This document shows positions 8,330 to 24,578 of a stretch of 64,000 bases of DNA, piece by piece (positions within the stretch are counted from its first letter, which is position 1; each line of letters opens with the position of its first letter). Source of the stretch: Chelatococcus asaccharovorans (GTDB lineage Bacteria; Pseudomonadota; Alphaproteobacteria; Rhizobiales; Beijerinckiaceae); NCBI RefSeq assembly GCF_003201475.1, contig NZ_QJJK01000002.1, positions 310,001-374,000 of the forward strand. The letters run 5' to 3'. Made by a program: the position numbers and the translations under genes. The notes below the pieces were generated by a model. The model was given only the letters and a program-made list of their open reading frames with translations, was not told where the DNA came from and did not search any database.

Positions 8330-9418
8330 GTGACCTCCGACGTTGAATTCCGCAATGTCTCGAAATTCTTCGGGACCCATGCCGCAGTCGACAACATTTC
8401 TTTCTCCGTACCGGCCGGGAGCTTTTTCTCGCTTCTCGGCCCCTCCGGTTGCGGCAAGTCCACCACGTTGCGCATGACGAGCGGATTCGAATTTCCCGAT
8501 CGCGGCGACATCCTGATTGCGGGTGAGAACATGGCCGGCATTGCCGCCTATCGGCGCCCGACGAACATGGTCTTCCAGCGCTGGGCGCTCTTCCCGCATA
8601 TGACCGTCTTCGACAACATCGCCTTCGGGCTGAGCGTCGAGCGGCAGCCGCGCGACATCATCCGTCGTCGCGTCGGCGAGGCGCTGGAACTCGTCGGGCT
8701 CACACAATTTGCATCACGCAAGCCCCGGCAACTCTCCGGCGGCCAGATGCAGCGCGTTGCGCTGGCACGCGCCCTGGTGAAGCGCCCGAAAGTCCTTCTG
8801 CTCGACGAGCCGCTCGGCGCGCTCGATCTCAAGCTGCGCATGCAGATGCAACTGGAGTTGAAACGTATTCAGCGCGAGGTCGGCACCACATTCATCTATG
8901 TCACCCATGATCAGGGCGAAGCGCTGACGATGTCCGACCAGATCGCCGTGATGAACAACGGTCGCATCGACCAGCTTGGCTCACCACAGGAGATCTATGA
9001 CCATCCCGCCACGCGCTTCGTGGCGGGTTTCATCGGCAATGCCAATCTGCTCCCCGTCCAACTCGCCGCAGAAGGCGCCGGCCGGAGTGCTGGAATGGCA
9101 ACCGTGTCGATGGGGGGCTTTACCTTTCCGACACAGATCGCGCAGGAGCCGACCGGCGACAAAGGCTGGATCGTCATCCGCTACGAGCGCATCCGCGTCG
9201 GCGACGCCGCCCGCGCCATGCCGATCCGCACGCAGGCCCGCGTGCGCGACGCGATCTTTGCCGGCTCGACAGTGCACTATGTCATGGCGATCGAGCCGGC
9301 CGGCACAGAGATCACCGTCGAGACCGGACATGACGGCCTGTCCAGCCCGCTCATGCAGGGCAGCCTCGTCGACATCGGTTGGGAGCCGGGCGTGACGCGG
9401 CTGTTCGGCGATGTCTGA
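8330..9418 (+). CDS. Polyamine-type ABC transporter ATP-binding protein
   Basis: This 362-residue ATPase of the PotA type has Walker A GPSGCGKST, the signature LSGGQMQRVALAR, Walker B VLLLDEPLGALD and the switch histidine in YVTHD. The C-terminal TOBE-like regulatory domain (about residues 270-362) is intact. The GTG at 8330 is taken as start because AAGGA lies seven bases upstream and the peptide begins right at the VEFRNVSK strand; the frame is open further upstream. It follows the binding-protein gene by 52 bases and overlaps the first permease gene by 8 bases. Confidence 0.92.
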   Translation: MTSDVEFRNVSKFFGTHAAVDNISFSVPAGSFFSLLGPSGCGKSTTLRMTSGFEFPDRGDILIAGENMAGIAAYRRPTNMVFQRWALFPHMTVFDNIAFGLSVERQPRDIIRRRVGEALELVGLTQFASRKPRQLSGGQMQRVALARALVKRPKVLLLDEPLGALDLKLRMQMQLELKRIQREVGTTFIYVTHDQGEALTMSDQIAVMNNGRIDQLGSPQEIYDHPATRFVAGFIGNANLLPVQLAAEGAGRSAGMATVSMGGFTFPTQIAQEPTGDKGWIVIRYERIRVGDAARAMPIRTQARVRDAIFAGSTVHYVMAIEPAGTEITVETGHDGLSSPLMQGSLVDIGWEPGVTRLFGDV

Positions 9419-10316
9419 GGCAGCCACGGTCGATCTCGCGGCGCGCGGCCTCGCCGCACCGAAAGCTCGCGGCGAATGGCGCCGACGTGCCATGCCTTGG
9501 CTCATGCTGGCGCCGAGCCTGGCGTTGATGCTCTACGCCTTCGTTCTGCCGATGCTCACCTTCTTCGAGTATTCGTTCTATACATTCCGGCGCGGAAAGC
9601 TCCTCGACGAATTCTCGCTCACCACCTATCGCCGCTTCCTGTTCGATGCCTACTACCAGACCATCGTCCTCGATACATTGTGGATGGCCACGCTGACAAC
9701 GCTGCTGGCACTCGCCATCGGCTACCCGCTGGCCTTCGCCCTGTGGCGCCTCGAGCGCCCCTGGATGAAACGATGGCTGTCCTTGATCATCTTCTCGCCA
9801 ATCATCGTCAGCGTCGTCGTGCGCTCCTACGGCTGGATCGTGCTGCTGGCGGATCAGGGACCCGTGAACTGGATCCTGAAAACGTCAGGCCTCGCGGCCG
9901 AGCCGGTGACCCTCGTCTTCAACCTGGTCGGGGTCGTCCTCAGCCTGGCCCATGTGTTCCTGCCCTTTGTCGTCTTCCCCATCTATTCCTCGATGAGCCG
10001 GATCGACCCTGCCTTGCGCGAAGCGGCGATGGATCTCGGCGCCGGCTGGCTGCGCACGTTCCGCAGCATCACCCTGCCCTTGACCCTGCCGGGCGTCGTC
10101 GCAGCCGTGCAGATCGCCTTTACCCTCGCCCTCGGTGCCTTCGTCACGCCGGCCATGCTGGGTGGCGGCCGCGTGCTGGTTCTGCCACTACAAGTCTATA
10201 ATGCCACAGCGGAGATCAACTGGCCGGTTGCAGCCGTCGGCGGGCTCGTCCTTCTGGTGATCGCGATCATCGTGGTCGCGCTCTGCAACCGTCTTCTCAA
10301 ATACAGCGAGGCGTGA
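9411..10316 (+). CDS. Polyamine-type ABC transporter permease (PotB-like)
   Basis: This 301-residue inner-membrane permease has about six hydrophobic segments beginning near residue 28 (WLMLAPSLALMLY). The cytoplasmic EAA loop is EAAMDLGAGWLRTFRSITLPL, near residues 204-224. Such proteins pair with a PotC-like subunit and a PotA-like ATPase. The ATG overlaps the end of the ATPase gene by 8 bases, showing translational coupling. It lies directly before the second permease gene with a one-base gap. Confidence 0.92.
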   Translation: MSEAATVDLAARGLAAPKARGEWRRRAMPWLMLAPSLALMLYAFVLPMLTFFEYSFYTFRRGKLLDEFSLTTYRRFLFDAYYQTIVLDTLWMATLTTLLALAIGYPLAFALWRLERPWMKRWLSLIIFSPIIVSVVVRSYGWIVLLADQGPVNWILKTSGLAAEPVTLVFNLVGVVLSLAHVFLPFVVFPIYSSMSRIDPALREAAMDLGAGWLRTFRSITLPLTLPGVVAAVQIAFTLALGAFVTPAMLGGGRVLVLPLQVYNATAEINWPVAAVGGLVLLVIAIIVVALCNRLLKYSEA

Positions 10317-14818: not shown

Positions 14819-14846
14819 TCGTTGGCGCGAACGGAGGGTGTGTGGC

Positions 14847-15713
14847 GTGGAAAGCTTTCTCGTTGAGCCGTCGTGGCTCGAAGCGAAGCTCGGCTCGGAT
14901 GATCTGGTCGCGCTGGATTGCGCCTGGTTTGTGCCGGAGGCCGGCCGCAGCGGGCTGGACGCTTTTCGGGCGGAACATATTCCGACGGCGCGCCACTTTG
15001 ATCTCAATGTCGCATCGGATGCGGCCTCGCCCTACCCCAACATGATGCCGAGCCTGTCCCAGTTTGCGGCCGTTGCCGGTGCGCTCGGCATCGACAATGC
15101 CACGACGGTGGTCATCTACGACGCAGGCTATGTATCCGCGCGCGTGTGGTGGATGTTCCGCCGCTTCGGCCATGAGAAGGTCTACATTCTCGACGGCGGC
15201 TTGCGCCGCTGGAAGGCGGAAGGCCGGCCGCTCGAGAGCGGCGAGCCAGCACCTGCTGCGGCCAGGACCTTCGAAGCCACGCCGCCGGTCACCGATATAG
15301 CCGGCTGGGTCGACGTGGCCGTCGCGCTGAGCGAAGGCACGGCCCAGGTGGTCGATGCCCGCACACCCGAGCGCTTCTCCGGCGCTCTGCCGTCGGGCTA
15401 TCCAGGCCTTGCGCCGGGACACATGCCCGGCGCCGTCAATCTGCCCTGGACGACCATGCTGCATCAGGACGGCGATTACCGCTTCAGCTCTCCCGAGGAA
15501 GCGGAAGCGGCCTTCCGCGCGGCCGGCGTCGACCCGGACCAGCCGATCATCGCGACATGCGGTTCCGGCGTCACCGCCGCCGTGCTGGCCTTCCAGCTCC
15601 TGCGCATGGGAAAGACGGATTGGACGATCTACGACGGCTCCTGGAACGAATGGGGACGCCGCAGCGACCTGCCGCGGGAATCCCTCGGCACGGCGGACAA
15701 TGCCAACGGCTGA
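14847..15713 (+). CDS. 3-mercaptopyruvate/thiosulfate sulfurtransferase (double rhodanese)
   Basis: This 288-residue protein has two rhodanese domains: inactive N-terminal (about 1-140) and catalytic C-terminal (about 160-280). The active-site loop is CGSGVTA starting at Cys238, the form typical of 3-mercaptopyruvate sulfurtransferases rather than thiosulfate enzymes. It would transfer sulfur from 3-mercaptopyruvate, the keto acid of cysteine, to a thiol or cyanide, leaving pyruvate. The GTG at 14847 was chosen because GGAGGG lies 8 bases upstream; GTG 14838 is an alternative. The operator copy at 14806-14818 links it to the GntR regulon. The VOC-type gene follows after 41 bases. Confidence 0.88.
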   Translation: MESFLVEPSWLEAKLGSDDLVALDCAWFVPEAGRSGLDAFRAEHIPTARHFDLNVASDAASPYPNMMPSLSQFAAVAGALGIDNATTVVIYDAGYVSARVWWMFRRFGHEKVYILDGGLRRWKAEGRPLESGEPAPAAARTFEATPPVTDIAGWVDVAVALSEGTAQVVDARTPERFSGALPSGYPGLAPGHMPGAVNLPWTTMLHQDGDYRFSSPEEAEAAFRAAGVDPDQPIIATCGSGVTAAVLAFQLLRMGKTDWTIYDGSWNEWGRRSDLPRESLGTADNANG

Positions 15714-16745: not shown

Positions 16746-17432
16746 TCACGCGGCGCTGGAGCTCTCGCGCGCGTTGATGGCGGCAAGGACGCGCTTGGCG
16801 CCATCGTCGATCGCACGCTCGATCGCCGCCCGTGCATCGCCGGCGGATCGCCGACGCAGGGCGTCGAGGAGCTCGTTGTAATTGACATGGACCGTCAGGG
16901 GCCGGCGTTCCTCCGGATAGAGATAGTTGAAACCGGGGCCTGCGCGCAGCCACAGCGTCTCGATGACGCTGATCAATGTCGGCATCGCGGCCGCACTGTA
17001 GAGAGCAAAGCGGAATTCCTTGTTCTTCATCAGGGCGGCGTGGGGCTCGCCGGCAGATTTTGCGGCCAGATATTGCGCCAGGAGCTCTTCCATCCGCGCG
17101 ATATCGACGGCGGTGATGACAATCGCGGCTTTTGCCGCCGCAAGTCCCTCGACCGCCTTTCGGACTTCCGAAAGCTCCAAATATTGTGCAGCATTCAGCG
17201 CGGGTACGCGGAAGGATTGGGCGGGCTCGGCCGTGAGAATGCCCGTCGCGGCAAAGCGCACGAGCGCCTCCCGGACAGGGGTGATGCTCATCCCCAGCGT
17301 ATCGGCAAGTTCCTTGGTGACAAGGCGCGTGCCAGGCTCCAGGCGCCCTTCGATCAGAGCATTGCGGAGTTCTTCTTCGACGTAGCCGACAAGGCTCTTG
17401 CGCGGCGCCGCGCTGAAGGAACCAATGCTCAC
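16746..17432 (-). CDS. GntR-family transcriptional regulator, FCD type (probable regulator of the ATATATSATATAT sites)
   Basis: This 228-residue regulator has a winged helix at about residues 10-75 (VEEELRNALIEGRLEPG, then SITPVREALVRF) and an FCD domain behind it. The frame is open to 17516, but that extension would cross the operator at 17508-17520 and has no typical GntR sequence. GTG 17432 with GAGGG just upstream is preferred. The protein is divergent from the dipeptide-type ABC operon. The operator between them recurs in front of the sulfurtransferase and the D-cysteine desulfhydrase genes, so it probably controls all three units and itself. The effector is probably a carboxylate product of the pathway. 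Confidence 0.85.
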   Translation of the reverse strand: MSIGSFSAAPRKSLVGYVEEELRNALIEGRLEPGTRLVTKELADTLGMSITPVREALVRFAATGILTAEPAQSFRVPALNAAQYLELSEVRKAVEGLAAAKAAIVITAVDIARMEELLAQYLAAKSAGEPHAALMKNKEFRFALYSAAAMPTLISVIETLWLRAGPGFNYLYPEERRPLTVHVNYNELLDALRRRSAGDARAAIERAIDDGAKRVLAAINARESSSAA

Positions 17433-17507
17433 AATGCCCTCATGCTTTGCATAGCTGCCTGAATTTTTACCATGGCACCCTCGCCGCTCACACCTTGTGC
17501 ATCTCGG

Positions 17508-17520
17508 ATATATCATATAT
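17508..17520. promoter_or_regulatory. Operator copy 2: ATATAT-C-ATATAT
   Basis: This is the same 13-bp palindrome as at 14806-14818 and 23503-23515. It sits in the divergent region between the GntR gene (start 17432, minus strand) and the ABC binding-protein gene (start 17595, plus strand). The position fits repression of both directions. Confidence 0.7.
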
Positions 17521-17594
17521 CGTCACAACACTCACAGACTTTTCTGCCTTTTGTCGCGCAGCTTGCTGCAGCCACCAGAGAAAAGGTCACCGTC

Positions 17595-19097
17595 ATGAGA
17601 CAATTGAAAGCGTTTGCCTTGGCGGCGGCTGTGCTGCTGTCGACCTCCACCGCCTGGGTGCAAGACAGTTTGGCCCAGAGCAGCCAGATCACGATTGCAC
17701 GGCCGGTCTCGACCACCGCAATGGACCCCGGCTTCCTCCGCGAAGCGGCGACGATCGTCGACAACATCTTCGACACGCTGGTCATGCGGGACAAGTCGAT
17801 GCAGCTTGTTCCCGGGCTCGCCGAGTCCTGGAAGCCAATCGACGACACCACCTGGGAATTCAAGCTCCGCCAGGGCGTCAAGTTTCACAATGGCGAGGAT
17901 TTCAACGCGGATGCGGTGAAATTCACGATCGATCGCATCATCGATCCTGCGGCGAAGTCGCCGACCCTGTCCTACATCAGGACCGTCGCAGGCGTTGACG
18001 TCATCGACCCCTACACAGTGCGCATCAGGACGACCGAGCCGGACCCGCTCCTGCCCACGCGCATGAGCCGTTACCCCGCCTATATCGTGCCGCCGGGCTA
18101 TGTGAAGCAGGTCGGCAACGACGGCTTCGCCACGAAGCCCGTGGGTACCGGGGCCTACCAATTCGTCGAGTTCATCCCCGATCAGCACGTCAAGCTGAAG
18201 GCCAATCCAGGCTACTGGCGCGGCAAGCCGGCGATCGAGCAGGTGACGTGGCGGGCCATCCCCGACGGAACGGCACGCATCACGGCGCTTGTCACCGGCG
18301 AAGTCGATCTGATCGAGGGCGTGCCCGTCGATCTCGCGCCGATGATTGCGGGCAGCAGCGATGCCGACCTCGTCCAGGTCAAGAACGGCGGCCTGACCAT
18401 CTATCTCGGCCTCGTCATGAAGGACAAGCCGCTCGACAACGTGAAGGTCCGTCAGGCCCTGAACATGGCGATCGACCGCAAGGGTATCGTCGACAACATC
18501 CTCAAGGGCATGGCGACGCCGAAGGGCACGCAGGTCGGCCCGGCCGACTTCGGCTATCTCGACATTCCTCCACCCGCCTATGATCCCAAGAAGGCCAAGG
18601 CGCTGCTCGCAGAGGCCGGTTTCCCGGATGGCTTCCGCATCAAGATGCAGTCGACCCTGCGCTACATGAAGGACGGCGAGGTCGCCCAGGCCATCGCGCA
18701 GCAGCTCGGCGACATCGGCGTGAAGGTCGACCAGGAGGTGCTGGACTGGTCCGTCTATGTGCAGCAGGTGCCACGCAAGGGGCCGATCTTCATGCTTGGC
18801 TGGGGTTCGACGCAGACGCTTGATGCCGATGCCGCGGTCTATGCCATCCTGCGGACCGGCGAGCCCTATTCGACCGCGTCCATCCCCGCGCTCGACAAGC
18901 TTCTCGACGAAAGCCGCAAGATTGTCGATCCTGAGGCGCGCAAGAAAGTCCTCCACGCTATTCAGGAGCTCTCCGCCGAGCAGGTGCCTCTGATTACGCT
19001 GTATCAAGAGGACTCGCTCTATGGCAAAGCAAAGAGCCTTAATTTCGAAGGACGGCCCGATGCGCGCATCCCGGTCTTCGAGATGAGCAAGCGCTGA
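17595..19097 (+). CDS. Dipeptide/oligopeptide-type ABC transporter substrate-binding protein
   Basis: This 500-residue family 5 extracellular binding protein (DppA/OppA class) has a Sec signal peptide at about residues 1-28 (hydrophobic run FALAAAVLLSTST, cleavage near LAQSS). The mature part contains the family hallmarks LAESWKP, FKLRQGVKFHNGEDFNADAV and the conserved GTGAYQFVEF. It captures short peptides or amino-acid conjugates in the periplasm. It is first in an operon with two permeases, the M20-like enzyme and the ornithine-cyclodeaminase-like enzyme. No ATPase genes are present here, so the ATP-binding subunits must be encoded elsewhere. Confidence 0.92.
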   Translation: MRQLKAFALAAAVLLSTSTAWVQDSLAQSSQITIARPVSTTAMDPGFLREAATIVDNIFDTLVMRDKSMQLVPGLAESWKPIDDTTWEFKLRQGVKFHNGEDFNADAVKFTIDRIIDPAAKSPTLSYIRTVAGVDVIDPYTVRIRTTEPDPLLPTRMSRYPAYIVPPGYVKQVGNDGFATKPVGTGAYQFVEFIPDQHVKLKANPGYWRGKPAIEQVTWRAIPDGTARITALVTGEVDLIEGVPVDLAPMIAGSSDADLVQVKNGGLTIYLGLVMKDKPLDNVKVRQALNMAIDRKGIVDNILKGMATPKGTQVGPADFGYLDIPPPAYDPKKAKALLAEAGFPDGFRIKMQSTLRYMKDGEVAQAIAQQLGDIGVKVDQEVLDWSVYVQQVPRKGPIFMLGWGSTQTLDADAAVYAILRTGEPYSTASIPALDKLLDESRKIVDPEARKKVLHAIQELSAEQVPLITLYQEDSLYGKAKSLNFEGRPDARIPVFEMSKR

Positions 19098-19102
19098 AGA
19101 CT

Positions 19103-19942
19103 ATGACGCGGTTCTGGAACGCCGGCCGGAACGCCGACGCTATCTTTGCCATCAGCCTTCTGGTCGCCGTCTGTGCGCTCAGTATTCTGGTGCCGTTGCT
19201 CTGGCCGCTGGACCCGATCCGCGGCCAGCTGACGGCGACGTTCCGGCCGCCGATGAGTGTCGTCGGGGGGCAACTGCACCCCCTTGGCACCGACCAGCTG
19301 GGCCGCGATCTCCTCGCGCGGCTCGGCCTCGGCACCGCGATCTCCCTCGGCATCGTCCTCTTCGCTTCGGTCATCGCCGTGGTGCTCGGCACGACGCTCG
19401 GGATGATCGCAGGCTATTTCGGCGGCTGGCTGGATGTCGTGATCATGCGCGCCGTCGATATCCAGCTCGCCATTCCCTTCATCCTGCTCATCCTGCTGAT
19501 CGTGGCCGTGGTCGGGCCCTCGATGCTCAACCTCATCGTCGTGCTCGGCGTCACAGGCTGGGCCATCTTCGCGCGGGTTGCCCGTGCGAGGACGCTGGAA
19601 GTGCGCGAGCTCGAGTATATCGACGCGTCGCGCGCCATCGGACTACCCAACTTCGCCATCCTCCTGCGGCATGTGCTGCCGAACATCGCTGGCTCGCAGA
19701 TCGTCCTGCTGACGCTTGACCTGCCGCGGCTGATCATCCTGGAGGCCTCCGTCGGCTTTCTCGGTCTCGGCGTGCAGCCGCCGACGCCGACGCTCGGCAA
19801 TCTGATCGGCGAGGGCCGATCCTTCATCCTCCTTGCCAACTGGCTCGTCCTGTACCCCGGCCTCGTCATCGGCTGCCTCGTCGTCGGCTGCAATCTCCTG
19901 GGGGATTGGCTGGTCCGCCGCGCCGACCGCAGAGGCGCTTGA
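19103..19942 (+). CDS. Dipeptide-type ABC transporter permease (DppC-like)
   Basis: This 279-residue permease has an N-terminal hydrophobic segment (ISLLVAVCALSILVPLLW). The HPLGTDQLGRDLLARL motif, characteristic of DppC/OppC subunits, is at about residues 58-73, and five further membrane segments follow. The EAA-type loop lies around DASRAIGLPN. It begins five bases after the binding-protein stop. In most dipeptide operons the DppB-like gene comes first; here the DppC-like gene precedes it. Confidence 0.92.
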   Translation: MTRFWNAGRNADAIFAISLLVAVCALSILVPLLWPLDPIRGQLTATFRPPMSVVGGQLHPLGTDQLGRDLLARLGLGTAISLGIVLFASVIAVVLGTTLGMIAGYFGGWLDVVIMRAVDIQLAIPFILLILLIVAVVGPSMLNLIVVLGVTGWAIFARVARARTLEVRELEYIDASRAIGLPNFAILLRHVLPNIAGSQIVLLTLDLPRLIILEASVGFLGLGVQPPTPTLGNLIGEGRSFILLANWLVLYPGLVIGCLVVGCNLLGDWLVRRADRRGA

Positions 19943-19944
19943 CC

Positions 19945-20865
19945 GTGAAAGCGCTGATCTTCATTGCCAACCGCGCCGCGCAGGGCATCATCGTGATGCT
20001 CGGCGTGTCGGCCATCGTGTTCTTTGCCCTTTTCCTGACAGGTGATCCCGCAGCCCTGATGATGTCGCCCGACGCCTCGCGCGCCGAGATTGAGGCCTTT
20101 CGCCAGGCGATGGGCTTCAATGATCCGATCTGGGTCCAATACGGGCGGTTCCTCGGTGGCGTCCTCTCGGGGGAGTTTGGCAATTCGCTGCGTTTCCAGC
20201 GCCCGGCGCTGGACCTGCTCCTCGAGCGCCTGCCCGCGACCGCGCTTCTCGCCTGCACCGCCCTGCTGTGGAGTTCGCTGCTCGGCTTTTTCCTGGGCAC
20301 CATCGCCGCCGTCCGCAAGGACAGCGCGATCGATTTCGCCATCCGGGTGATTTCCCTGCTCGGACAGGCCATCCCGGTCTTCTGGCTGGCGCTCATCCTG
20401 ATCATCGTCTTCGCGCTCAATCTGCGCTGGCTGCCGAGCAGCGGCATCGGCACGGCCAAGCAGTTGATCCTGCCGTCGATCGCGCTCGGCGCCTATTATC
20501 TTAGCGCCATCACCCGGCTGGTGCGCGCCAGTCTCATCGAGGTGCTGGGCGAGAACTACATTCGCACCGCCCGCGCGAAGGGCGTGCAAGGCTGGTCGCT
20601 CGTGGTCCACCATGCTCTGCGCAATGCGCTGATCCCGGTTATCACCGTACAGGGGATCTATTTCGCGTCCCTGCTCGGCGGCGCGCTCGTCACCGAGATC
20701 ATCTTTGCCTGGCCCGGCATCGGGCGGCTGGCGGTGGAATCCATCCAGAATCGCGATTTCCCCGTGGTCCAGGCCGTCGTCCTCTTCGCGGCTTTCGTCT
20801 TCGTCGTCGTCAACTTCCTCGTCGATCTCGCCTATCTCTGGCTCAATCCGAGGATCAGGCTGTGA
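19945..20865 (+). CDS. Dipeptide-type ABC transporter permease (DppB-like)
   Basis: This 306-residue permease has six hydrophobic segments. It contains the DppB/OppB features LTGDPAALM near the N-terminus, MGFNDPIWVQYGRFL, and the loop YIRTARAKGV used for contact with the ATPase. The GTG at 19945 lies two bases past the previous stop, with AGAGG a short way upstream. The stop codon overlaps the GTG start of the M20-like gene by 4 bases, so the permease and the enzyme are translationally coupled. Confidence 0.92.
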   Translation: MKALIFIANRAAQGIIVMLGVSAIVFFALFLTGDPAALMMSPDASRAEIEAFRQAMGFNDPIWVQYGRFLGGVLSGEFGNSLRFQRPALDLLLERLPATALLACTALLWSSLLGFFLGTIAAVRKDSAIDFAIRVISLLGQAIPVFWLALILIIVFALNLRWLPSSGIGTAKQLILPSIALGAYYLSAITRLVRASLIEVLGENYIRTARAKGVQGWSLVVHHALRNALIPVITVQGIYFASLLGGALVTEIIFAWPGIGRLAVESIQNRDFPVVQAVVLFAAFVFVVVNFLVDLAYLWLNPRIRL

Positions 20866-22229
20866 CTTCGGCGCTTTCAGACCTCGCCCGGGACGCGCTC
20901 GACCTCACCGAAGCGTGGTGCCGGATTCCGTCGGTGCGGGGTGACGACCAGGCGCTCGACCGCCAGGCCGCCGCCATCAGCGACTGGCTCAATCGTGAGC
21001 TCGGCGCGGAGATCGTCAATGATCGCCGCCGCGACGGCCGGCCCGCCGTCATCCATGCGCGGCTCGATGTGGGCGCCCCCCACACCGTCATCCTCTACAA
21101 TATGTACGACGTCATGCCCGCCGATCCCGCCGGCTGGTCCGTCGCGCCCTTTACCGGTGGCATCGTCGACCTGCCGGACATCGGCTCCTGTTTCATTGCC
21201 CGCGGGGCGGAAAACAACAAGGGCCCGCTGGCCGGCATGCTGGCCGTGCTGAAACAGATGGCCGACAGCGGCGCCTTAGCCGTCAATGTCGAGATCCTGG
21301 TGGATGGCGAGGAGGAAAGCGGCAGCGGCGCGCTGCGCGCCTATCTGCTCGATCCCGCCTGCCCCGTCCGCGCCAGCATCGGCGGGCTGTTCCCGTCGCT
21401 CTGCGAATACGGCGGCGGCCCGCCGCGCGTCTATCTCGGCTTCTCCGGCATCGCCAAGGGCGGGATCCGCGTGGAAGGCGGGGCATGGGGTGGTCCGCGC
21501 GCGGCCATCCACTCGAGCAATGCGCCCTGGATCGCCAATCCCGCGAGCCGTCTCATCGAAGCCCTCGCCCTGTTTGGACGGTCGCCGACCGGTGAACTCG
21601 ACAGGGTCACGCTCGACGCGGAGGCGCGCTCGATCGTCGCCGCGCTTGCGGCAAGCTTTGACTTGCAAGCCGAATTGCGCTTCCGCAAGACCGATCGCTT
21701 CGCGCTGGACGGCGACGCGGAAGCCCTGCTGACGCATGTTCTGACGACCGCGTCCGCCACGATCAACGCGCTCGCGACGGAGCCCGTCGCCGGCGACGCC
21801 ATCATTCCGGCCGCGGCCCGGGCGACATTCGACCTGCGCTGTCCGCCTCCCCTCGATCCCGCGCGCTATCTCGACGCCTTCCGCGAAACCCTACGCGCGG
21901 ACGCCCTCGACGGCGTCATGCTGACCGTCGCGGATAGCTATCCCGGGACGCGCTTCGCCCGGGACGCGGCCGGCGTCGCGGCCTTGCTGGCGGCCTATGC
22001 GGCGACGTCAACACCGCCGCAAATCTGGCCCTGGGCGATCGGCGCGGCGCCCGGCTATGCCTTTGCACGCCACGCTGATTCGTTTCTCATCGGCGGCGCG
22101 GGGCGCGGCGGCAACGCCCATGGCATTGGTGAATTCATGACGCTGGAAGGCCTTGAGCGCTTCCTCACCTCCATTGCGATCTGGCTGGGCGAGATGGCTA
22201 AGGCACCCGCGCCGGAGAGGAGCCCATGA
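20862..22229 (+). CDS. M20-family peptidase-like protein with substituted zinc ligands
   Basis: This 455-residue protein has the M20/ArgE/DapE fold: a catalytic domain with a dimerisation domain inserted at about 190-320. The general-base region DGEEESGS (148-155) and the late AHG histidine are present. The usual H-x-D zinc motif reads NMYDVMP (80-86), with Met81 where histidine is expected. The RG-DDKG motif reads RGAENNKG (114-121), with Asn118 in place of the bridging aspartate. Two classical zinc ligands are thus replaced, so metal content or mechanism may differ. The gene overlaps the permease gene and the following cyclodeaminase gene by 4 bases each, so it probably acts on the imported peptide or amide. 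Confidence 0.82.
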   Translation: MTSALSDLARDALDLTEAWCRIPSVRGDDQALDRQAAAISDWLNRELGAEIVNDRRRDGRPAVIHARLDVGAPHTVILYNMYDVMPADPAGWSVAPFTGGIVDLPDIGSCFIARGAENNKGPLAGMLAVLKQMADSGALAVNVEILVDGEEESGSGALRAYLLDPACPVRASIGGLFPSLCEYGGGPPRVYLGFSGIAKGGIRVEGGAWGGPRAAIHSSNAPWIANPASRLIEALALFGRSPTGELDRVTLDAEARSIVAALAASFDLQAELRFRKTDRFALDGDAEALLTHVLTTASATINALATEPVAGDAIIPAAARATFDLRCPPPLDPARYLDAFRETLRADALDGVMLTVADSYPGTRFARDAAGVAALLAAYAATSTPPQIWPWAIGAAPGYAFARHADSFLIGGAGRGGNAHGIGEFMTLEGLERFLTSIAIWLGEMAKAPAPERSP

Positions 22230-23212
22230 TCACGTTGCGCTATCTCTCGCGCGCCGATGTCATCGCGGCCGGCGGGGGCGACTGGCCGCTGGCCGTCGCG
22301 GATGTGCGCGAGGCGACCCGCCTGCTGCGCACGGGCGAGGCCGGCATGGAGGCCGAGAGCGTGATGCCCATGGGCAGCGATCCACGCGCCAAGGCCTATG
22401 GCCTGCCGGCCTTCGTTGGCGGCTCCTATGATGCGGCGGGCCTAAAATGGGCGGTGCATCGACCGGAAAGCCGGGGCGATCTGCCGAGCATCACCAACAC
22501 CACCTTCATCAATCGCCTCAGCGACGGACGCCCGCTTGGGCTGGTGGAGAGTGCCTATCTCACACGGATGCGCACGGCCGCCGTCTCCGCTCTCGCCATG
22601 GAGCATCTCCTGCCGAGCCCGCCTGCCCGCGTCGCCATTCTCGGCGCCGGCGCGCAGGCTGAGGCGCATCTCGCCATGGTGCTGGCGCTGTTTCCCTCCG
22701 TATCCGAGATCCGGATGTGGAACCGGACCGGCAGCAGGCTGGAGGCGCTCCTTGCGGGCAAGCCGTCGCGGGCCGGCGTCACGCTCGTCCGCTGCGCCGC
22801 GATTGCAGAGGCCACCGCGGAGGCTGACGTCATCCTGAGCTGCACGTCCGCGTCGGATCCGATCCTCGACGACAAGGCCGTGCGGCCCGGCCGGCTGATC
22901 GTTCAGGTCGGCTATCACGAGGTCTCCTTTGCCGCGATCGCCGCCAGTGACGTGGTCGCCGTCGACCTGTGGGGCGACTTTGCCGAGAAGAGCGCGAAAA
23001 GCCTGTTCCAGATGTATCGCGCCGGCCAGTTTCCGCCCGCGCGTGTCGCCGCCGATCTCGCCCGACTGGTCGTGGATGGCTGGCGCCCGCCGGCAGGGGC
23101 TTCGCTCTATTTCTCCAGCTTTGGCCTCAACCTGTTCGACATCGCCCTGGCGGCACGCGTCCTGAACCAAGCGGAGGTTGGGGGCATAGGCGCTACCCTG
23201 CCCTATCTCTAG
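22226..23212 (+). CDS. Ornithine cyclodeaminase/mu-crystallin family protein
   Basis: This 328-residue member of the OCD/mu-crystallin family has a Rossmann motif with ILGAGAQAEAHLAMV around residues 135-149 and the RTAAVSALA helix before it. Relatives include ornithine cyclodeaminase, ketimine reductase, alanine dehydrogenase of archaea and tauropine-like enzymes. In this setting an imine or ketimine reductase acting on a cyclic sulfur amino acid product would fit, but that is inference. It is the last gene of the operon beginning at 17595. Confidence 0.88.
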   Translation: MITLRYLSRADVIAAGGGDWPLAVADVREATRLLRTGEAGMEAESVMPMGSDPRAKAYGLPAFVGGSYDAAGLKWAVHRPESRGDLPSITNTTFINRLSDGRPLGLVESAYLTRMRTAAVSALAMEHLLPSPPARVAILGAGAQAEAHLAMVLALFPSVSEIRMWNRTGSRLEALLAGKPSRAGVTLVRCAAIAEATAEADVILSCTSASDPILDDKAVRPGRLIVQVGYHEVSFAAIAASDVVAVDLWGDFAEKSAKSLFQMYRAGQFPPARVAADLARLVVDGWRPPAGASLYFSSFGLNLFDIALAARVLNQAEVGGIGATLPYL

Positions 23213-23573: not shown

Positions 23574-24578
23574 ATGAAGCTCGAAGACATTCCGCGCCTC
23601 TCCCTCGGCTTTCTCCCGACGCCGATCGAAAAGCTCGATCGGCTCAGCGCCGAGTTCGGCATCGATCTCTCCGTCAAGCGCGACGACTTCACCGGCTTCG
23701 GCGGGGGTGGCAACAAGGTCCGGAAGCTCGAATTTCTAATGGCCGACGCCGTCGCCCAGGGCGTCAAGGTCCTGATCACGACGGGCGGACACCAGTCCAA
23801 CCACGCGCGGATGACCGCCGCGGCCGCACGGAAATTCGGGATGAAACCCATCCTCGTGCTGCGCGGCAACAGCCCGGCGGTGCTGCAGGGCAATCTGCTG
23901 CTCGACCATCTCCTCGGCGCCGAGATCGATTTCCTCGATCCGGACGCCTATTTCACCGAGATCAATCCGCGCATGCAGCATCACGCGGATCAGGCCACGG
24001 CCCGTGGCGAAAAGCCCTATATCATCCCACTCGGCGGCGCGAGTGCGCTGGGCGCAATGGGCTATGTCGCAGCCGTGAAGGAACTCGCCGCGCAATATAC
24101 CGCCGCCGGAGAGGCCGCGCCCGATCTCATCGTCGCCCCGGTCGGCTCGGGCGGCACGCTCGCCGGGCTTCTCATCGGCTGCGCCCTGTTCTGGCCCGAC
24201 ACCAAGGTCGCCGGTATTGCCGTGAGCGGCAGCGCCGTGCCGTTTTCCGAGCGCATTGCCGTCATGGCCAATGCCGGGGCCGAGCTGCTCGATTTCGACA
24301 GGCGCTTCGATCCTGCCGATATCCGTATCGAGAACGACTATGTAGGCGCGGGCTATGCAATCCCGAGCCTAGAGGGCAACGCCGCGATCACCAAGGTCGC
24401 GCAGGCGGAGGGCATGTTCCTCGACCCGGTCTATACCGGCAAGGCCGTCGCCGGTCTGCTCGACTGCGTCAAACGCGGCTCCATCCCCCAGGGCAGCAAG
24501 GTGCTGTTCGTCCATTGCGGCGGATCGCCGGCCCTCTTCCCCCATGCGGAACTCTTGACGCAAGACCGCACAAACTGA
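23574..24578 (+). CDS. D-cysteine desulfhydrase (PLP-dependent, ACC-deaminase fold)
   Basis: This 334-residue fold-type II PLP enzyme has its PLP lysine in GGGGNKVRKLEF (about Lys48), TGGHQSNHAR around residues 74-83, and the phosphate-binding GSGGTLAG loop. ACC deaminases carry Glu and Leu at two diagnostic sites. Here the first reads DPVYTGKA, with Thr, and the second VLFVHCGG, with Cys. This argues for D-cysteine desulfhydrase activity (D-cysteine to pyruvate, sulfide and ammonia) rather than ACC ring opening. The gene stands alone behind the third regulon operator. Together with the sulfurtransferase it points to a cysteine-derived substrate. Confidence 0.87.
   Translation: MKLEDIPRLSLGFLPTPIEKLDRLSAEFGIDLSVKRDDFTGFGGGGNKVRKLEFLMADAVAQGVKVLITTGGHQSNHARMTAAAARKFGMKPILVLRGNSPAVLQGNLLLDHLLGAEIDFLDPDAYFTEINPRMQHHADQATARGEKPYIIPLGGASALGAMGYVAAVKELAAQYTAAGEAAPDLIVAPVGSGGTLAGLLIGCALFWPDTKVAGIAVSGSAVPFSERIAVMANAGAELLDFDRRFDPADIRIENDYVGAGYAIPSLEGNAAITKVAQAEGMFLDPVYTGKAVAGLLDCVKRGSIPQGSKVLFVHCGGSPALFPHAELLTQDRTN

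Follow-up and report, generated by a model that had tools for sequence, protein, structure and literature searches.

The question raised by this locus was whether an M20-family protein whose zinc ligands have been replaced could still be a metal-dependent enzyme, and on what it would act. The gene lies at 20862-22229 in a 64,000-nucleotide stretch of Chelatococcus asaccharovorans DNA (contig NZ_QJJK01000002.1, forward-strand positions 310,001 to 374,000), referred to here as the window. A sequence-only reading of the window had pointed out Met81 at the histidine of the HxD motif and Asn118 at the bridging aspartate, had argued against random decay, and had suggested a subgroup with one metal, a different metal, or a different reaction, for instance amide or imine chemistry with the imported substrate. 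Our analysis indicates that the complete ligand set of one predicted zinc site is gone and that nearly all sampled members of a widespread clade share the change; the protein would therefore act with a single, weakly bound metal or with no metal, probably on an imported sulfur-containing amino-acid compound.

Active site of the window protein

Assignment to the M20 family was examined by domain match and by fold. The protein matched Peptidase_M20 (PF01546) in Pfam with 47.3 bits against a cut-off of 24.6, and its AlphaFold2 model (predicted local distance difference test score 94.1) had the M20 fold of a catalytic domain with an inserted dimerization domain when compared with Protein Data Bank entry 4mmo (Z 39.7, 422 residues). 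Its NCBIfam matches were all sub-threshold; the best, NF005034 (PRK06446), scored 104.2 bits against a cut-off of 369, which places the protein outside that subfamily. The genome has 20 Peptidase_M20 matches, 18 of them above the cut-off. In a pattern scan, in which some paralogues had no readable motif, the window protein was the only one of these in which an Asn-bearing RG motif was seen.

The ligand positions were defined by comparison with solved enzymes. In E. coli ArgE (PMC11270798), H80, D112, and E169 hold the first zinc (Zn1), which the mono-zinc and the di-zinc structure both contain; D112, E145, and H355 hold the second (Zn2), whose occupancy is lower. Truncated, zinc-loaded V. cholerae DapE (PMC4012986) has the same two ligand sets, and PMC4320195 likewise assigns the C-terminal His to the second metal site. 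In most di-zinc DapE structures, as in ArgE, the second site has the lower occupancy.

The codons of the window gene (Table 1) bore out both Met81 and Asn118. Because Met81, Asn118, and Pro178-Ser179 occupy its three ligand positions, the complete predicted Zn1 set (His, bridging Asp, and a third Asp or Glu) is lost from the window protein. The sequence-only reading was therefore right about two replaced ligands and fell short on the third, whose loss removes one entire site. At the Zn2 positions E152 and H420 are retained and the bridging Asp has become Asn118. The catalytic Glu that precedes the ligand Glu is present as E151, Lys120 is retained as well, and the GEEES (residues 149-153) and NAHG (418-421) motifs remain, as that reading had stated. 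Alignment to the carboxypeptidase Sso-CP2 (4mmo) placed NMYDV over NHYDV and AENNKG over ASDNKG. His217 is the probable equivalent of DapE His194. We take Arg326 to be the probable counterpart of the substrate contacts DapE Arg258 and ArgE Arg264, a match made by motif position and not by structural superposition. The window protein is an M20 homologue with the M20 fold, but its residues at the ligand positions do not fit the definition of an M20 dinuclear metallopeptidase.

Conservation of the replaced ligands

Residues 81, 83, 118, 120, 151, 152, 178, 179, 217, 326, and 420 were identical in all 80 rows of a family alignment, so that every row had M81, N118, and P178-S179 in place of the Zn1 ligands and kept E151. 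This alignment included the window protein and relatives with at least 45% identity to it, some of the rows being near-identical. It omitted L001 (the window itself), L004 (no match), L079 (whose frame is disrupted between residues 81 and 118), and L002, L003, L081, and L086 (judged not to be family). Seventy-two of the 80 rows came from a scan of genome contigs with peptide patterns, and all 74 loci contain YNMYDVMP. Because YNMYDVMP was among the scan patterns, the 80-row set tests Asn118, the third ligand position, and the retained residues, and cannot test Met81.

Searches that were not keyed to Met were made of plasmids, of the phylum, and of the class. A tblastn search of 72,556 plasmid records (E ≤ 1e-30) found seven records (L082-L085, L086, L167, and L168), all seven Met/Asn. 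Among 398 genomes of the phylum at the same threshold, there were 11 matches, and the 10 that were not the window itself were all Met/Asn. In 190 genomes of the class (E ≤ 1e-12), three matches outside the window had E ≤ 1e-34: L126 and L128 were Met/Asn, and L127 had Met81 and Asp118 with a degenerate GEEES motif. Beyond a score gap, at E values of 2.3e-18 or weaker, came His/Asp proteins only, at 19 places that include the genome's own L002. In these searches the near relatives were all ligand-shifted (Met/Asn, in one case Met/Asp), and ordinary His/Asp homologues were found only past a sharp score gap.

A homologue with the normal His and Asp in the same gene context would have spoken for a change confined to one strain, and it was sought from the adjacent ornithine cyclodeaminase/mu-crystallin family (OCD) gene. 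That search found four of the 398 genomes at E ≤ 1e-35 (the window's own, G578, G532, and G564), the same four that have close M20 relatives, with the OCD and M20 genes no more than about 1.1 kb apart. At E ≤ 1e-30 it found six of the 72,556 plasmid records, the same six that hold close M20 relatives. No His/Asp M20 gene was present at any of these loci; a Met/Asn M20 gene was adjacent or one gene away. The ratio of nonsynonymous to synonymous substitution rates (dN/dS) of the M20 gene, compared with three congeners, was 0.138-0.150.

A ligand-shifted clade

Two trees, both built with the ligand columns included, were used to place the subgroup. In a 69-row tree, a branch with 100/100 support parted 29 His/Asp rows from 40 ligand-shifted rows. 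A 40-row tree had as outgroup two DapE/ArgE-type paralogues on long branches (L100 and L101, removed from the 69-row tree) and left out L127, which has a long branch, and other rows. In it 22 shifted rows formed one clade with support of 98/99, and 16 His/Asp dipeptidase-type rows stood against it. In the wider ligand alignment the close family was represented by a chosen part, and L102 and L103 gave no protein.

Members of the shifted clade come from Pseudomonadota, from a Cytobacillus plasmid (L086, Bacillota), from a Gemmatirosa plasmid (L157, Gemmatimonadota), and from archaea, namely a metagenome-assembled genome (MAG) of Thaumarchaeota (L081) and two haloarchaeal plasmids (L148 and L149). 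Most members have a WG(R)GP insert before His217 that is missing from the canonical rows; the insert is absent from L081, incomplete in L042, and made up of different residues in L096 and L147. On this evidence the subgroup is assigned to a single, widespread, and deep clade of M20-fold proteins. The subgroup that had been suggested is conserved and no single-strain mutation, but the trees make it part of a deep clade and not a variant of one operon.

Two taxonomic labels among these loci stand out. The M20 protein of L036, titled Mycobacterium sp. KBS0706, adjoins that of Inquilinus L039 on very short tree branches, and L067, from a MAG titled Anaerolineae, gives identity figures equal to those of the alphaproteobacterial MAG locus L041. 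Both M20 proteins group with alphaproteobacterial ones, and the records may be mislabeled or come from mixed bins.

Further ligand losses occur within the clade. The protein of L147 (plasmid of Bosea sp. NBC_00550, 5974-7437) has His81, Ala118, Leu152, and Ala420. Those of L148 (5977-7458) and L149 (5983-7470) have Met81, Lys118, Ile or Leu at 152, and Glu420, with all metal ligands lost. All three retain Asp83, Arg114, Lys120, Glu151, His217, Arg326, and Glu424. Every one of the 36 Met/Asn rows, which include three pairs of identical sequences, retained both E152 and H420, and the three rows with Lys or Ala at 118 had lost both. This near-concerted variation of positions 118, 152, and 420 is what one remaining metal site would lead one to expect, and we regard it as the best evidence for a predicted single metal at Asn118-Glu152-His420 in the subgroup.

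The more distant clade members occur in other gene contexts. In L086 (5803-15972), the Met/Asn M20 gene is clustered with an Opp-type importer, one gene of the succinylglutamate desuccinylase/aspartoacylase family, and two genes for M14 metallopeptidases. In L147, the M20 gene is downstream of genes for a D-2-hydroxyacid dehydrogenase, a solute-binding protein, and two permeases. Loci L118-L122 (genomes G514, G340, G403, G536, and G560) form an FMYDV/MMYDV Met/Asn branch, and their proteins are probably exported, with N-termini that by eye resemble Tat, Sec, or lipoprotein signals.

Gene neighborhood

The M20 open reading frame shares 4 bases with each of its neighbors, at its start with the end of the DppB-type permease gene and at its stop with the beginning of the OCD gene, and the gene therefore sits within a tightly packed operon. 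The features of the window are listed in Table 1.

Table 1 Features of the M20 gene, its protein, and its neighborhood in the window
Feature	Position	Strand	Basis
Rhodanese, 3-mercaptopyruvate sulfurtransferase type, possible partner	14838..15713	+	NF008557, 237.6 bits, cut-off 250
GntR/FCD regulator, divergent from cassette	16746..17516	-	Pfam
Dpp-type solute-binding protein (SBP_bac_5), open reading frame as listed	17472..19097	+	Pfam, NCBIfam
DppC-type permease	19103..19942	+	Pfam
DppB-type permease, open reading frame as listed	19906..20865	+	Pfam, NCBIfam
M20-fold protein with shifted metal ligands, 455 amino acids	20862..22229	+	GTG start, open reading frame list
Met81 (ATG), replaces HxD histidine (Zn1 ligand)	21102..21104	+	Codon read, alignments
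Asp83, HxD Asp retained	21108..21110	+	80/80 family rows
Asn118 (AAC), replaces bridging aspartate (Zn1 and Zn2 ligand)	21213..21215	+	Codon read, alignments
Glu151 at the position of the general base and Glu152 at that of a Zn2 ligand, both retained	21312..21317	+	80/80 rows
Pro178-Ser179, at place of third Zn1 ligand (Glu178 or Asp179 in canonical relatives)	21393..21398	+	Alignments
WGGP insertion, residues 209-212; most of shifted clade, no canonical row	21486..21497	+	Alignments
His217, conserved dimerization-domain histidine	21510..21512	+	80/80 rows
Arg326, conserved arginine	21837..21839	+	80/80 rows; 19/19 rows of second alignment
His420, C-terminal histidine retained (Zn2 ligand position)	22119..22121	+	80/80 rows
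Ornithine cyclodeaminase/mu-crystallin family enzyme (OCD)	22226..23212	+	Pfam, NCBIfam
Pyridoxal phosphate (PLP) enzyme, D-cysteine desulfhydrase family	23574..24578	+	TIGR01275, 307.6 bits, cut-off 289.4; Pfam PALP

The PLP neighbor is a member of the D-cysteine desulfhydrase family by its TIGR01275 score. Other names were considered and set aside: it scored 318.1 and 318.6 bits against 450 for the D-cysteate sulfo-lyases CuyA and XcbE, and 216.5 bits against a cut-off of 392 for 1-aminocyclopropane-1-carboxylate deaminase (TIGR01274). The OCD neighbor scored 140.3 bits against 326.9 for SbnB. The rhodanese scored just below its cut-off, and relatives with 61-72% identity to it are found near the cassette in L008, L019, and L026.

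The cassette was surveyed in 67 loci, which remained from 80 after removal of L081 and of 12 loci judged near-duplicates; some near-duplicates remain. All were found through the M20 gene, the gene clusters counted are single-linkage ones, and the counts are lower bounds that come from simple gene calls. The M20 gene was called in 62, the solute-binding protein in 60, a fused ATP-binding cassette (ABC) ATPase in 59 (a count that may include paralogues), the OCD gene in 54, GntR in 52, permease C in 50, the PLP enzyme in 48, permease B in 44, and a second type of rhodanese in 38. Further recurrent genes were HydA (18), a BisC-type S/N-oxide reductase (16), a flavin adenine dinucleotide-dependent oxidoreductase (16), and a short-chain dehydrogenase/reductase (15). 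The molybdopterin-type BisC reductase and the hydantoinase/oxoprolinase HydA recur by the cassette (L012, L014, L021, L027, and others); BisC- and caprolactamase-type models score below NCBIfam cut-offs in annotated representatives.

Annotated examples of the cassette are those of Paracoccus (L083), Ewingella (L084), and Pantoea (L085 and L167), and its carriers include bacteria isolated from plants and soil according to the sources of the plasmid records. In the window's genome, the closest counterpart of the cassettes' fused ABC ATPase (66% identity) lies on another contig (G000:C9:33457-35271), away from the importer genes. The rhodanese near the window's cassette differs in type from that of most cassettes, and the second type has no close copy in this genome (best 30% identity). 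In the stretches examined of the Acetobacter loci L069, L077, and L079, no match to the solute-binding protein or a permease was found. In L079 (A. okinawensis JCM 25146, about 9178-10220), the M20 gene is split across two frames between residues 81 and 118.

Proposed function and its alternatives

We favor, tentatively and at a little under an even chance, an active enzyme with one metal at the old second site that would free a cysteine-type amino acid from an imported compound. In this scheme, the Dpp-type importer would bring in an amino-acid conjugate as the substrate, which would be held by its carboxylate through Arg326 and His217. Glu151 would act as the base, and a single metal ion would be bound at the old second site by Asn118, Glu152, and His420. 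The cysteine-type amino acid released, perhaps of D configuration, would be passed to the desulfhydrase-family enzyme, and the OCD-family enzyme and the sulfurtransferase would then process the resulting imine or keto compound together with the sulfur. The substrate is probably an imported sulfur-containing amino-acid compound; it is context alone, in the form of the cysteine-desulfhydrase-family neighbor, that points to this class, and the amide or imine chemistry suggested by the sequence-only reading is speculative.

Several results speak for this scheme: the invariance in 80/80 rows, the Met/Asn matches of the unbiased searches, the variation of 118/152/420 as a unit, the 98/99 support for the clade, the low dN/dS, the ligand sets of ArgE and DapE, and the OCD and PLP context. 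To these may be added a gene in L119 (7554-8642, minus strand) that directly follows a distant Met/Asn M20 gene and encodes a protein near the L-cysteine desulfhydrase Cds1 (544 bits, cut-off 600).

Other results weigh against it. In ArgE (PMC11270798), the mono-zinc enzyme fills Zn1, the very site lost here, whereas the site that is kept has the lower occupancy. The Asp of the kept site is now Asn, and a metal may therefore not bind at all. L127 (genome G723) has Asp118 and His420 with Glu152 lost by alignment, and so breaks the rule that the three positions change together; it is a possible intermediate on a long branch. Cysteine-desulfhydrase-like genes (blastp, E ≤ 1e-12) were found in one of the seven neighborhoods L117-L123, one of which is ended by a contig end, and beside none of L081, L086, and L147-L149. 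Finally, DUG1, an M20 relative named Cys-Gly metallodipeptidase in the Protein Data Bank, takes a thiol dipeptide as its substrate, and the loss of metal therefore needs more than a thiol substrate to account for it.

An explanation with a real but minority chance is that the clade gave up zinc altogether. Glu151 and the His217 of the partner subunit would then carry out acid-base catalysis, Arg326 would hold the substrate, and Glu152 and His420 would have a direct or structural role. The loss of the complete Zn1 site fits this explanation, as does the lower occupancy of the site corresponding to the remaining one in ArgE and in the majority of DapE structures with two zincs. It stays alive because the three fully stripped rows, L147-L149, keep Glu151, His217, and Arg326, along with Asp83, Arg114, Lys120, and Glu424, without either Zn2 ligand. 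These three proteins may themselves be inactive, however, and the presence of Glu152 and His420 in all 36 Met/Asn rows has a simple explanation in a bound metal.

A broader form of the same idea, to which we give a slightly smaller chance, is that the whole M20 branch, in bacteria and archaea, left metal catalysis stepwise. The tight Zn1 site would have gone first, giving the Met/Asn forms. Some lines, those with Lys or Ala at 118 and neither Glu152 nor His420, would later have given up the second site as well. The base Glu151 would have stayed throughout, as would His217, acting across subunits, and Arg326, binding the carboxylate. The result would be a metal-free, acid-base class of M20 enzymes whose reactions differ from ordinary hydrolysis of peptides and which, in the window's case, would help to break down a cysteine-type compound.

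It is improbable that the protein is a non-catalytic pseudoenzyme serving as a ligand-binding protein or as an assembly partner of the OCD and desulfhydrase enzymes or of the transporter. Three metal ligands are indeed lost, and the gene has a recurrent place between the permease and the OCD and desulfhydrase genes, with 4-base overlaps in the window. Binding alone, however, would not need so many invariant residues (the base Glu, the Zn2 ligands, the Arg for the substrate, and the His), and the contexts of the more distant members are different.

Still more doubtful is a two-metal hydrolase in which Met81, through its thioether, and Asn118 serve as ligands, perhaps for a softer metal. Met and Asn side chains of proteins can bind metals, and both residues are fixed and not random. 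The third ligand position, however, is Pro-Ser here and is varied and non-acidic in distant members (residues 178/179 being H/A, P/H, P/W, P/M, P/F, P/L, or P/K), and because of this variation the Zn1 site has not been rebuilt in any constant way.

Strain-specific mutation, decay, or sequencing error, for which it can be said that Asn118 is one base away from Asp, is refuted for practical purposes by the recurrence of these residues in many genera whose genomes were sequenced independently and by the low dN/dS, in agreement with the earlier argument against random decay.

Implications

Proteins of the M20 family are filed automatically as metal hydrolases, and the annotated plasmid relatives carry the label "M20/M25/M40 family metallo-hydrolase." That label is unsafe for a clade lacking the primary zinc site, and the window protein should not be filed as an M20 dinuclear metallopeptidase. 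The shifted branch is definable and easily recognized by MYDV, RGA-x-N-x-KGP, and WG(R)GP; searches of an open-licence library, by titles and the beginnings of abstracts, turned up no account of the Met/Asn clade. It marks an uncharacterized import and breakdown cassette, and the natural series Met/Asn, Met/Asp, Met/Lys, and His/Ala offers a model for the loss of metal by a dinuclear hydrolase and the later use of its fold.

Comparison with known systems

The 5-nitroanthranilate aminohydrolase is related to the M20 enzymes but uses metal in an unusual way and catalyzes a reaction other than peptide cleavage. In a comparison of fold, its structures (5k8m-5k8p) matched the window model as M20-like (Z 27.4-28.4) with only 12-13% identity. 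The carnosinase/CN2 and DUG1 dipeptidases (3dlj, 4ruh, 2zof, and 4g1p) have the same fold and the M20 dipeptidase sequence type; their entries are named dipeptidases or metallodipeptidase, one title including Mn. Unlike the window protein, 3dlj and 4ruh show the HxD His and the bridging Asp in the alignments.

Among solved structures, the best match in sequence (profile E 9.7e-68) as well as in fold (Z 39.7, root-mean-square deviation 2.2 over 422 residues, 23% identity) is the metallo-carboxypeptidase Sso-CP2 of Sulfolobus solfataricus. It shares YN-x-YDV, HSSNAP, and NAH-x-x-x-E with the window protein but carries all three Zn1 ligands (the His of HxD, the bridging Asp, and Glu as the third), of which the window protein has none. 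The mono-zinc forms of DapE and ArgE (4o23, 3isz, and 7rsf; Z 33.3, 31.5, and 30.9) have the same fold and share with the window protein the Glu base, the Zn2 Glu and His, and the dimerization-domain His. These crystal forms demonstrate that the M20 fold can crystallize with one metal. In ArgE, however, Zn1 with its His, bridging Asp, and Glu is kept in both the mono- and the di-zinc form, and it is exactly this site that the window protein has lost.

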